Source: Nitrospiraceae bacterium (GTDB taxonomy: Bacteria > Nitrospirota > Thermodesulfovibrionia > Thermodesulfovibrionales > Dissulfurispiraceae). Taken from it: a stretch of 32,503 nt of DNA. Positions 20,301-24,071 of the stretch are shown here, piece by piece. Location: NCBI GenBank assembly GCA_012517735.1, contig JAAYUK010000176.1, positions 1 to 32,503 on the forward strand, given 5' to 3'. The position numbers and the translations under genes are program-made. Under the pieces are notes generated by a model that saw only the letters and a list, made by a program, of their open reading frames with translations, was not told where the DNA came from and ran no database searches. How positions within the stretch are numbered: position 1 is the stretch's first letter; each line of letters opens with the position of its first letter.

Positions 20301-20630
20301 TTATTTCTTCGCCGGTTCGGCTGCGGGCTTGATGTCGATGCTCTTTGCGGTTTTGTCTTTCTCAAAGAACCACACGGTTACCCGGTCGCCCATTTTGATA
20401 TCGCCGATCGTCTTGCGTTCACGTTGCATCTTGACGAGTGTGGTATCGGTAAGAGTGACGATGATGGTGTCGTTCCGGTATTTAACCGTCATGGACTTTG
20501 CGGCTGCATCGATTGCGACCACTTCACCGGTGCGCTGAATCACCTTCAGCTTTTCCTTGGCAAAGGCGGGCGCTGCGAGGGCAAAAACCAGCAGGAAAGA
20601 ACAGGCAATCAGAACCATTTTTTTTATCAT
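20301..20630 (-). CDS. secreted/periplasmic small beta-domain protein
   Basis: A 109-aa protein with a clear Sec signal peptide (MIKKMVLIACSFLLVFALAAPAFA, cleavage before KEKLK). The mature part alternates short charged and hydrophobic strands (RTGEVVAIDAAAKSMTVKY, IKMGDRVTVWFFEKD), a pattern like small OB/beta-barrel domains (DUF5666-like). No enzyme motif. It ends AAEPAKK, nearly the same tail as the neighbouring gene product. AAAGGA ribosome-binding site. Located between two hairpins: the terminator of the upstream gene and its own. Function unknown. Confidence 0.8.
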   Translation of the reverse strand: MIKKMVLIACSFLLVFALAAPAFAKEKLKVIQRTGEVVAIDAAAKSMTVKYRNDTIIVTLTDTTLVKMQRERKTIGDIKMGDRVTVWFFEKDKTAKSIDIKPAAEPAKK

Positions 20631-20660: not shown

Positions 20661-20695
20661 TAAAGAGAGGGCAGATGCCTGAGCATCTGCCCTCT
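20661..20695 (-). terminator. terminator-like hairpin after the Lys/Ala-rich protein gene
   Basis: Perfect 13-bp stem (20666-20678 with 20683-20695; GAGGGCAGATGC and its complement) with a 4-nt loop, followed on the minus strand by TCTTTAT (20661-20665 and adjoining). The T tract is modest, so read-through into the 109-aa gene is possible. Confidence 0.7.
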
Positions 20696-20723: not shown

Positions 20724-21002
20724 TTACTTCTTTGCCGGCTCAGCCTTCTTCTCTTCAGCCTTCGGAGCGTCCTTCTTCTCCTCAGCCTTCTTGTCGGCCT
20801 TCTTGGTCTTCTTTGCCTTCTTCGCCTTCTTTTCCTTCTTCGGCTCGGCCTTCTTGTCAGCTGCTGCGTCCTTCTTCTCGTCAGCCTTTACTGCCGGAGC
20901 TGCTGCAGGCTTGTCTGCCGGCTTTGCAGCGTCAGCTGCCATAGCTGCGGTTACGGAAAGAGCGAAAAGCAGTGCAACGACGATAGCGATGATCTTCTTC
21001 AT
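20724..21002 (-). CDS. secreted Lys/Ala-rich low-complexity protein
   Basis: A 92-aa protein: signal peptide MKKIIAIVVALLFALSVTAAMA, then a mature region made almost only of Lys, Ala, Glu, Asp and Pro (for example KKAKKAKKTKKADKKAEEKK). It is highly basic with local charge alternation and is surely disordered or helical. It resembles histone-H1-like tails but is exported. Start chosen at ATG 21002 because AGGAGGT lies 10 nt upstream and the signal peptide begins there; the longer frame to 21140 crosses the promoter. A sigma-54 element stands upstream. Function unknown; envelope charge or stress-related binding is a guess. Confidence 0.8.
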   Translation of the reverse strand: MKKIIAIVVALLFALSVTAAMAADAAKPADKPAAAPAVKADEKKDAAADKKAEPKKEKKAKKAKKTKKADKKAEEKKDAPKAEEKKAEPAKK

Positions 21003-21080
21003 GTGTGTTCCACCTCCTTTTGCGTGTGATTTTTTCTTGAGAAACTTTTTGTTTTTTATCAAAACAACGTCAGATAACAA

Positions 21081-21097
21081 AGCAATCTTCATGCCAA
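21081..21097 (-). promoter_or_regulatory. sigma-54 (RpoN) -24/-12 promoter
   Basis: On the minus strand TTGGCAT (21091-21097) and TTGCT (21081-21085) are separated by five bases, giving GG-N10-GC as in the consensus TGGCAC-N5-TTGCW. The expected start is near 21070, about 68 nt before the ATG of the Lys/Ala-rich protein. The gene for an NtrC-type activator with GAFTGA ends 64 bp further upstream. Confidence 0.65.
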
Positions 21098-21112
21098 ATG
21101 TGTAGAATGCCC

Positions 21113-21129
21113 GAAAATGCAGTGTTTTC
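21113..21129. promoter_or_regulatory. possible activator-binding dyad
   Basis: GAAAA-N7-TTTTC inverted repeat, 16 bp upstream of the -24 element. It could be a binding site for the adjacent NtrC-family regulator, though enhancer sites are commonly further from the promoter. Weak evidence from symmetry alone. Confidence 0.25.
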
Positions 21130-21160
21130 TCTTTTTGCATCTTCAGGAAAAGGGAGAAAA

Positions 21161-22552
21161 CTACCTTTTATCGGGAGCATTATCCTCTTTTGAGGAACTC
21201 GTATTGATTCCGAACTTTTCGAGGCGGTACCAGAAGGTTTTATAACTCATGCCGAGCAGTCGGGCCGCTTTTGCGGCGACATTGTTGGACTTTACCATCG
21301 CTTTTTTGAGAAGCTCGCGCTCCATTTCTTCGAAGTTGATCCCCTCATCCGGAATATCCATATCGAGCAGCCCCTTTTCGAGAGACATCCGGAGTTCGTC
21401 CTTTACATCGCGAGGCTGTATGGTGTCGGTATCGCTCATGAGCACAGCGCGTTCGATTACCGCTTCGAGCTGACGGATATTGCCCGGCCAGTGGTATTCC
21501 ATGAGGGCCTTGAGCGAGCTGTCGCTGATGCCCTTGATGCGCCTGCCGAACTCTATGTTGTACTTTCCGATGAAAAAGTTGACGAGCGCTGGAATGTCTT
21601 CTTTCCGTTCACGAAGCGGCGGCAGCTCTATCTGTACCACCCTGAGCCGGTAGTAGAGGTCTTCGCGGAAGCGGCCTGCGGGAACCTCCTTTTCCAGATT
21701 CCTGTTGGTAGCGGCAATAATGCGCACATCAATTCTGATGCTCTCTTTCCCTCCGATGCGCCGGACCTCCCGATCCTGCAGCACCCGGAGGATTTTGGTC
21801 TGCATCATCAGCGGAAGGTCACCGATCTCGTCCAGGAAAAGGGTTCCTTTGTTGGCGGATTCAAAGAGGCCGATCTTGCGGGTCGTCGCGCCGGTGAAGG
21901 CGCCTGGCTCGTATCCGAAGAGCTCGCTTTCGATCAGGTTTTCAGGGATGGCCGCGCAGTTGATCGCCATGAACGGGCCGCTTTTCCGGGGGCTGTTATA
22001 ATGGACCGCCCGGGCGATCAGTTCTTTTCCGGTACCGCTCTCTCCGGAGATCAGGACGGTGACATTCGCCGGCGTGACTTTTCTGATCACCTCCATCACG
22101 TCCTGCATTTTTTTGGACTTGCCGACGATTCCTTCGATCTTGAACTTGTCGAAAAGCTGTTTGCGAAGCTGGATATTTTCTTTCAGCAGTTCCATCCGCT
22201 CCACGGCTTTCCGGACCGCCAGCACGATCTCATCCTTTTCAAGCGGCTTGGTAAGGTAGTCGAAGGCACCGTTCTTCATGGCTTCCACCGCCGACGCGAC
22301 GGTTCCGAACGCTGTCATGAGAATGAACGCCGGTTTTACGGGTTCTTCCGGCAGGGAGAGCAGCAGGTCGACGCCACTCATGCCTCCCATCTTGAGATCA
22401 CTCAAAACCACATCAGGTTTCATTTCCCTGATCAGTTCGAGACCGTCTTCAGCAGACGCCGCCACATGCGCTTCGTACCCTTCTCCTTCAAGGATGGTTT
22501 TCAGGATGTCTCTCTGGCGCTGCTCGTCGTCAATGATCACTATTACAGCCAT
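21161..22552 (-). CDS. NtrC-family sigma-54-dependent response regulator
   Basis: A 463-aa three-domain activator. Receiver domain (1-120) with the acidic pocket Asp8/Asp9, phospho-acceptor Asp52 (VVLSDLKM), Thr80 and Lys102. AAA+ domain (about 140-370) with Walker A GESGTGKE at 170-177 and the sigma-54-contacting GAFTGA at 217-222, then FLDEIGDLP (Walker B). C-terminal Fis-type helix-turn-helix (NVAAKAARLLGMSYKTFWYRLEKFGI). It should activate RpoN promoters when phosphorylated by the kinase encoded just upstream. ATG has an AAGGAG ribosome-binding site; 13 nt separate it from the kinase stop. The domains match AtoC/ZraR-like regulators; the signal is unknown. Confidence 0.96.
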   Translation of the reverse strand: MAVIVIIDDEQRQRDILKTILEGEGYEAHVAASAEDGLELIREMKPDVVLSDLKMGGMSGVDLLLSLPEEPVKPAFILMTAFGTVASAVEAMKNGAFDYLTKPLEKDEIVLAVRKAVERMELLKENIQLRKQLFDKFKIEGIVGKSKKMQDVMEVIRKVTPANVTVLISGESGTGKELIARAVHYNSPRKSGPFMAINCAAIPENLIESELFGYEPGAFTGATTRKIGLFESANKGTLFLDEIGDLPLMMQTKILRVLQDREVRRIGGKESIRIDVRIIAATNRNLEKEVPAGRFREDLYYRLRVVQIELPPLRERKEDIPALVNFFIGKYNIEFGRRIKGISDSSLKALMEYHWPGNIRQLEAVIERAVLMSDTDTIQPRDVKDELRMSLEKGLLDMDIPDEGINFEEMERELLKKAMVKSNNVAAKAARLLGMSYKTFWYRLEKFGINTSSSKEDNAPDKR

Positions 22553-22565
22553 GGGACCGTCTCCT

Positions 22566-24014
22566 TTATTGGTTACTGTCGTTTTGTCTCACCGGGAGGA
22601 TGAACCGGACCTCACTGCCCTCTCCGGGGGTGCTCAGAAATACGACTCTGCCGCCATGCTCTTCAATGACCTTTTTCGTCATGGGCAGGCCAAGTCCGAG
22701 ACCATACTCCTTGGAGGAGAAAAAGGGTTCGAAGATCCGTGCAATCTTGTCCGGCGACACGCCTTCTCCATTATCGATGACGGTTATCGTCAGATGGTCG
22801 TCCGAAAACTCCGTCCTGACTTTCAGAATGCCGCCATCCTTGCGGCTTGCCATGGCATGGAAGGCATTGGTGATGACATTCAGCAGACATGACTTGAAAA
22901 GATCGGGGTCGACCCAAATGTCCCGGTCATCAGCATACTCCTTGATGATGGTGATGCCGTCCGCTTCCGCCTTCGCCCAGACAAGGGCGACAACGTCTTC
23001 AAGCAGCGCGGTTGCCGAGACCTGCTGACGGCTCAGCTTCATCGGCTTGCTGTACATCAGAAAATCATTGACCAGCTTGTTCAGACGGTGAATCTCCTGC
23101 TTCATTCCGGACAGGATACTGGCGAACTGATTCCGGCGGATAACCTCTTCGGGCTGATACTTGTCGTTTAGGTGGTCGATGCTCAGGTTGATGAAATTGA
23201 GCGGATTCCTGATTTCGTGAGCAATGCTCCGGGAGAGTTCGCCGAGCCCCGACAGATGTTCCGCCGCGCGCAGCTTTTCTTCCAGCGCACGGCTTTCACG
23301 CAGCTTTTCGACCATGAAATTAAAGCTCTCCGACAGCTTGCCGATCTCGTCCCGGCTCTGGACGGGAATATGCTGGTTCAGATCTCCGGCGGCAACGCGC
23401 ATTGCGGCATCAACCACCGTGTTGATCGGTTGCGTATACCGTCGGGCGAGGATGAAGATGGCGATCATCCCGACACAGAAGACCACGATGGTGGCAAGAA
23501 TGCGCTGGATGGCCGTTTCCCGCTGGAGACGCGAGAAGTCCTCCAGATTGATTTTCAGGTGGATGTATCCGTATTGCGTGTCGCCGGCAATAACCGGAAT
23601 GATGACGTTGTAGGCTTTCCCCTCTTCAGATACCGGCTCGCCGAGCTCCGCCTTGATGATCAGCTCTTTACGGCGGTGCGTAATGGGGCGTCCGATTTTT
23701 GCGCGGTCGCTGCTCGCCACGATTTCGTCGGTGTTGCTGATGATCGAGATTTCCTTGACGCCGCGGGTGTTCAGGTCTTTCAGGTACTTTTCGAGCCGGG
23801 CCTCGTCGGTAGCGCCCTTTCCGGTCACTTCCTCAACGCCGACCTGGATCGCCTTGGTGAGTTCCCTGGCCTGTGTTTCCAGTTCGCTGTGCAGACGCTT
23901 TTCCGCATGGGCATAGAAAAAAAGCAGAATCAGGATCAGTGCGCAGCTCAATCCCAGCATGATCATGATGAGCTTCAGTTTCAGAGTAACCGTAAATACC
24001 TGGCGATCAAACAT
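22566..24014 (-). CDS. membrane sensor histidine kinase
   Basis: A 482-aa sensor. TM1 at about residues 12-34, a periplasmic sensing region of about 135 residues (single-Cache-like: VKEISIISNTDEIVASSD, YGYIHLKINLEDF), TM2 around 172-191 (IVVFCVGMIAIFIL), HAMP, then dimerisation helix with phospho-acceptor His266 in HEIRNPL, and HATPase with NVITNAFHAM (N box), DNGEGV (G1), FEPFFSSKEYGLGLGL (F/G2). The periplasmic domain should sense a small ligand. Start chosen at ATG 24014: the frame remains open much further upstream, but that part lies across the promoter and antisense to yggS. It is paired with the downstream NtrC-type regulator. A -10 box sits 6 nt before this ATG. Confidence 0.93.
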   Translation of the reverse strand: MFDRQVFTVTLKLKLIMIMLGLSCALILILLFFYAHAEKRLHSELETQARELTKAIQVGVEEVTGKGATDEARLEKYLKDLNTRGVKEISIISNTDEIVASSDRAKIGRPITHRRKELIIKAELGEPVSEEGKAYNVIIPVIAGDTQYGYIHLKINLEDFSRLQRETAIQRILATIVVFCVGMIAIFILARRYTQPINTVVDAAMRVAAGDLNQHIPVQSRDEIGKLSESFNFMVEKLRESRALEEKLRAAEHLSGLGELSRSIAHEIRNPLNFINLSIDHLNDKYQPEEVIRRNQFASILSGMKQEIHRLNKLVNDFLMYSKPMKLSRQQVSATALLEDVVALVWAKAEADGITIIKEYADDRDIWVDPDLFKSCLLNVITNAFHAMASRKDGGILKVRTEFSDDHLTITVIDNGEGVSPDKIARIFEPFFSSKEYGLGLGLPMTKKVIEEHGGRVVFLSTPGEGSEVRFILPVRQNDSNQ

Positions 24015-24020
24015 AGCTAC

Positions 24021-24029
24021 ACTATACCA
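24021..24029 (-). promoter_or_regulatory. extended -10 promoter of the histidine kinase gene (leaderless type)
   Basis: Minus strand TGG-TATAGT (TATAGT at 24021-24026) is an extended -10 element. Six nt separate it from the ATG at 24014. A weak -35 (TGGAGA, 24044-24049) lies 17 nt upstream. Confidence 0.5.
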
Positions 24030-24071
24030 CAGGTCTTTTGCTCTCTCCAGTGGCCTCATGGCCGTCTTTTC

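Follow-up and report, generated by a model that had tools for sequence, protein, structure and literature searches.

Highly Probable RpoN-Dependent Control of Secreted Lysine-Rich Proteins by a Sensor Kinase and an NtrC-Type Activator in a Nitrospirota Bacterium and Its Relatives

We find that a membrane sensor kinase and its partner activator very probably switch on secreted Lys-rich proteins through an RpoN promoter in a Nitrospirota bacterium and its relatives. As to the regulatory part, sequence comparison makes it highly probable that an RpoN-dependent two-component circuit drives its target via a tandem operator that lies inside the gene of the regulator itself. Comparison between genomes supports the promoter, the operator, the co-variation of operator and regulator, and the further members of the regulon; we infer the steps of phosphorylation and looping, as well as the signal and what the polycationic protein does.

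Organization and Conservation of the Locus

The window (the whole 32.5-kb stretch of DNA that was analysed) is part of contig C223 of a 2.71-Mb draft genome (G000). Its minus strand carries, in this order, a kinase, a response regulator, an intergenic region, a Lys/Ala-rich secreted protein (the target, with its ATG at 21002), a second secreted protein, and a gene (20168-19002) that we take, from the appearance of its sequence, to encode an aminotransferase of the LL-diaminopimelate type (Table 1). The genomes are drafts, in which gene starts were called by simple rules. The stem-loop between the two secreted-protein genes has no T-run and was not called as a terminator; it is possibly an attenuator or an mRNA-processing point.

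Table 1. Features of the locus, with positions in the window
Feature	Position	Strand	Evidence
Membrane sensor histidine kinase, extracytoplasmic domain and HAMP	22566..24059	-	Pfam; adjoins regulator in relatives too
NtrC-family response regulator (bacterial enhancer-binding protein), likely activator	21161..22552	-	Pfam; orthologues of 58-79% identity
Likely tandem operator (enhancer), TCCTCAAAAGAGGA-TAATGC-TCCCGATAAAAGGT	21163..21196	-	Two dyads, 20-bp period; cross-genome comparison
Dyad of the earlier note, GAAAATGCAGTGTTTTC	21113..21129	.	Present, not conserved
Sigma-54 -24/-12 promoter, TTTGGCATGAAGATTGCT	21098-21081	-	GG-N10-GC; orthologous position conserved
Ribosome-binding site of target gene, AGGAGGTG	21011..21018	-	Equally strong site in most orthologues
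Target gene, 92-aa secreted Lys/Ala-rich protein	20724..21002	-	ORF, ribosome-binding site, signal peptide, composition, same-place orthologues
Stem-loop, 13-bp, G+C-rich	20666..20695	-	Between the two secreted-protein genes; z -4.4 vs shuffles
Second secreted protein, CusF-like OB fold	20301..20630	-	Predicted structure, fold search, profile search

An earlier note, made from the DNA letters alone, had placed a GAFTGA-containing NtrC-family regulator directly upstream of the target, with its sensor kinase, and Pfam searches and translation bear this out. The regulator has the receiver domain, the sigma-54 AAA+ domain with GAFTGA, and the Fis-type HTH of an NtrC-family response regulator, all with Pfam matches above cut-off. 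Its orthologues are clearly separated from paralogues, which reach at most 50% identity. Orthologous loci in ~45 genomes, which are related by descent and so do not count as independent, keep the order of kinase, NtrC-type regulator, -24/-12 site, and Lys/Ala-rich secreted protein, although the remaining intergenic DNA is unalignable. Downstream of most regulator orthologues we find a -24/-12 element, then a strong ribosome-binding site, and then a Lys/Ala-rich protein with a signal peptide, an arrangement kept across an order and in parts of the phylum. In more distant families of the phylum (L157, L159-L161) the target and a -24/-12-like site are present, but the region checked holds no recognisable operator. 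A scan of genome contigs with the kinase gave five loci.

The sensor region of the kinase is highly conserved (63% mean column identity). Its structural model, of moderate confidence (mean pLDDT 72), has as its best fold match WalK, whose sensor is of the Cache/PAS-like extracytoplasmic type, and on this basis the kinase is predicted to have a WalK-like extracytoplasmic domain.

As the earlier note had it, the target is a secreted basic protein; it has a signal peptide. With the cleavage site judged by eye, the mature form has 70 residues, among them 26 Lys (37%), 21 Ala (30%), 8 Glu, and 7 Asp, giving a net charge of +11 and a pI of 9.8, and it shows no recognised domain and no match to a Pfam family. 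The second secreted protein is predicted to adopt an OB fold (pLDDT >90 over the core). The two are separate genes in most loci of the window's family, and in other families of the order, as well as in a few family members, the Lys/Ala-rich part is fused with the OB protein.

The RpoN Promoter

The near-perfect -24/-12 element lies 79 bp upstream of the target ATG and is the sole match to a relaxed form of the motif on either strand of the entire window. It was recognised in the earlier note as TTGGCAT-N5-TTGCT with GG-N10-GC spacing; the site is there and, like the gene and the regulator, lies on the minus strand, which that note leaves unsaid. The presence of rpoN, which that note had named as a check, is confirmed by an encoded RpoN (PF04552, E 1e-59), so that a sigma-54 promoter of the form TGGCAY-N5-TTGCW stands in a genome that has rpoN. 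The same pattern has 21 matches genome-wide vs 1 for the reversed control, showing that this motif class is enriched in an RpoN-encoding genome. In addition, a pattern joining the promoter to GGAGGTG across a variable gap has 30 sites in 21 of the 31 genomes of the family, in which its reversed control has none. By these sequence criteria the promoter upstream of the target gene is real, and we predict from the sequence that transcription of the target starts near 21070.

Several lineages (L026, L027, L029, L051, L052, L091, L093, L095, L142, and others) have TTGT rather than TTGC at -12 with the -24 element intact, and AT-rich DNA (TTGTATAAT) often follows such a -12. At L026, L027, L029, L030, L031, L036, and L040 the -24 sequence is matched 21 bp downstream by its inverted repeat (TTGGCA-N21-TGCCAA, or TTGGTA with TACCAA in L040), and a CCAAAAATTGGGGAA-like stretch follows close to where the mRNA is predicted to begin. 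We rejected this inverted repeat as a general element, as it is perfect in only 7 of 51 loci and absent in the window. The genus of G137 has a different leader element, AAACTGAAATCCCTTT, in common.

A Likely Tandem Operator within the Regulator Gene

We find two dyads at the 3' end of the gene for the regulator, 66 bp before the TGG of the -24 box; in the last codons of the regulators they typically read TCCTCAAAAGAGGA-N6-TCCYGAAAAARGGA. For counting we used a more neutral pattern, TCCYN6RGGA-N6-TCCYN6RGGA, accepted with at most 4 mismatches of 16 and within 60 nt of the regulator stop. It occurs in 41 of the 45 target-bearing loci and in none of 45 control stretches from the same genes, and in 2 of the 23 loci scored as being without a target (Fisher 1e-11, target-bearing vs not). 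Both exceptions are scoring artefacts: L042, which does have the promoter, is cut off by the end of its contig, and the fused target of L087 is a Thr/Ser-rich variant. L035 was scored as being without a target on account of the greater distance to its targets; there the tandem dyads precede the displaced targets (L168; G009) instead of lying in the regulator tail. The window operator is the best match to the pattern in its own genome.

Codon usage within the first dyad is fixed. Ser is encoded by TCC in 36/36 cases (13% elsewhere in the genes; binomial P 1e-32), Glu by GAG in 22/22 (43% elsewhere; 8e-9), and Lys by AAA in 31/31 (54% elsewhere; 4e-9), P values that overstate significance because the sequences are related. 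In 15 loci the stop TAA falls inside the second dyad, since the dyads begin 27 nt ahead of where the stop codon ends; in one genus a different reading frame runs through the dyads. Fixed synonymous codons, a shifted stop, and a change of frame show selection on the DNA. Comparison thus places a tandem dyad upstream of a -24/-12 promoter, as for an enhancer-binding protein, and by these sequence criteria it is likely to be the operator.

The earlier note had pointed to another dyad near the promoter, GAAAA-N7-TTTTC. It exists, but it has no conserved counterpart in relatives, even within the same genus (L024), and for this reason we rejected it as the probable operator. The gel-shift target proposed with it, 21097-21160, is probably the wrong one, as the conserved operator lies just beyond it.

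Regulator orthologues at L047, L048, L099, L101-L106, L143, and L152 have neither a downstream target nor the operator; there the regulator must have other targets or be decaying.

Co-variation of Regulator and Operator

We compared recognition helices and half-sites across 16 genomes of one genus. All 10 regulators with the helix SYKTFWYR have half-sites of the TTCC/GGAA type, and all 6 with S/TYDTFWYR have the TTCG/CGAA type, so that Lys-to-Asp in the helix coincides with C-to-G in the half-sites. In chemical terms, a Lys opposite G and an Asp opposite C make sense. The Asp variant may go back to a single event in one clade, and the co-variation accordingly counts as at least one event. Since recognition helix and half-sites change together, this regulator is tied to this operator.

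Further Members of the Regulon

The regulon has more than one target. In genomes of the family, tandem dyads stand 53-130 bp before -24/-12 promoters of genes for Lys/Ala-rich paralogues (G000, L172, with a weaker operator; G001, L167; G020, L162; two genes in G009, L168), small OB-like proteins ending in EGC (G026 and G013; L163, L164), and a c-type cytochrome with CxxCH motifs (G022, L126). Of the 21 exact -24/-12 sites in the window's own genome, the one in the window is accompanied by the best operator, with 1 mismatch. Next come those of the Lys/Ala-rich paralogue on contig C68 (L172), with 3, of a glycine-zipper-like protein, also with 3, and of a small protein resembling a cytochrome, with 4; all others show 5 mismatches or more. 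At 1 mismatch the operator pattern, across the family, also matches places without a promoter, in some genomes about as often as its reversed control, and so we regard the operator alone as insufficient evidence and operator plus promoter as sufficient. L111, the 2-mismatch match of the own genome that is closest in sequence, was rejected: it falls within a gene, and no -24/-12 site follows it.

The paralogue on C68 (L010 / L172 of G000) is near a gene that resembles those of membrane transporters of the YeeE/YedE type, and here too the operator seems to be placed at the 3' end of a coding frame. Another group of -24/-12 promoters (L060, L061, L064, L071, L079, L086, and L011 and L016 of the own genome) precedes genes for secreted LTPEQ-type proteins, which are Spy/CpxP/ZraP-like by appearance. 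Several of these promoters have TGCAAATATTGCA-like repeats upstream, which points to another enhancer-binding protein as their probable activator.

Discussion

Three other explanations of the locus can be set against a circuit in which the neighbouring regulator acts on the target. The -24/-12 site could be functional but activated by a different enhancer-binding protein, with the neighbouring regulator acting elsewhere: the genome has at least 13 regulators like this one, and activators of this kind can act on unlinked promoters. This would leave unexplained that the operator is present where the regulator adjoins the target and absent where the target is gone, and that recognition helix and operator vary together, and we regard it as very unlikely. 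Still less probable is a target driven by a housekeeping promoter with the -24/-12 match arising by chance. GG-N10-GC does arise by chance at a low rate, and some orthologues carry TTGTATAAT, which resembles a -10 box; yet the site is kept at the same place while its flanks diverge, and the region between regulator and target holds no sigma-70-type site that we could find.

An equally slight chance attaches to the idea that the DNA of the regulator tail is conserved on account of the C-terminal peptide (SSKED..PEKR) and not as an operator. The peptide is indeed similar across the genera of the window's family, but its frame, length, and stop vary while the DNA dyads stay and synonymous codons are fixed, and the same dyads stand before unlinked targets and accompany the displaced targets in G009. 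The dedicated circuit of kinase, regulator, RpoN promoter, and secreted basic protein put forward in the earlier note is strongly supported by the presence of rpoN, the conserved layout, and the operator-regulator co-variation; that it forms an envelope response to a periplasmic signal is something we infer.

In the circuit that we favour, an extracytoplasmic signal would activate the kinase, which would phosphorylate the NtrC-type regulator. Regulator dimers would bind the two dyads, two helical turns apart, in the last codons of their own gene, and looping over ~40-200 bp would bring RpoN-RNA polymerase to form an open complex at the -24/-12 promoter ahead of the gene for the secreted protein. 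This pair of operator and promoter would also control the unlinked genes for further Lys/Ala-rich proteins, the small OB-like secreted proteins, and the c-type cytochrome in relatives. The target, as a periplasmic protein that would be disordered and carry positive charge, most likely protects or buffers the envelope, a role to which we give slightly less than an even chance. That the circuit serves metal, acid, or cationic stress is a guess suggested by the OB fold and the polycation.

The closest known layout is that of ZraPSR, an envelope-stress two-component system of Escherichia coli and Salmonella with a membrane kinase, a sigma-54-dependent NtrC-family regulator, a small secreted target encoded alongside, and a narrow regulon (PMC7657598, PMC4987338). 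Regulator and kinase of the window, however, score far below the NCBIfam equivalog cut-offs for ZraR (389 bits vs 760) and ZraS (166 vs 479), and the regulator likewise scores below the cut-off for AtoC (484 vs 714). The target, too, differs from that of ZraPSR in being Lys/Ala-rich and outside any Pfam family. Furthermore, zraP is divergent from zraSR, whereas the window's target lies downstream and its operator inside the regulator gene.

As a small secreted basic protein rich in Lys and Ala, the target recalls Asr, the acid-shock repetitive basic protein, which is Lys/Ala/Pro-rich. It matches the Asr profile weakly over nearly its whole length, at 26.2 bits, a score below the NCBIfam cut-off of 50 that could be due to low-complexity composition alone, and its promoter is of a different type. 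The likeness to CusF/SilF concerns the second secreted protein only: its predicted OB fold can be superposed on that of CusF (TM 0.70 by target length, Foldseek E 9e-5) and it matches the CusF profile at E 1e-4, but the His/Trp/Met ligand stretch aligns to non-ligand residues, and the scores are below the Pfam and NCBIfam cut-offs, so that we did not assign it to CusF.

A role for sigma-54 in controlling the exterior of bacteria is an established theme (PMC3162934). The sigma-54 response-regulator networks of Desulfovibrio vulgaris, in the portion of that study drawn on here, likewise have regulators near their targets, sigma-54 promoters, and conserved binding motifs; the same portion shows no regulator to be that of the window and names no Lys-rich target (PMC3333781). 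In the literature searched, no such regulon is described in Nitrospirota. It is well supported that this is an undescribed RpoN regulon, ZraPSR-like in layout but with a different output, and the circuit family, the operator, and the output appear to be new.

Taking the findings together, we lean toward a phylum-level envelope regulon of Nitrospirota, whose output is polycationic disordered secreted proteins, sometimes OB-fused, whose operator overlaps the stop codon of its activator, and in which Lys-to-Asp with C-to-G is a natural specificity switch. It provides an experimentally testable regulon for Nitrospirota, with operator, promoter, and targets, whose main output is a secreted polycation. 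The operator in coding DNA means that a binding site can shape the C terminus of a protein and its stop codon. The Lys/Asp and TTCC/TTCG variants amount to a natural specificity experiment for this class of activators and, if this is true, would make directly testable the code by which the Fis-type helices of enhancer-binding proteins recognise DNA.
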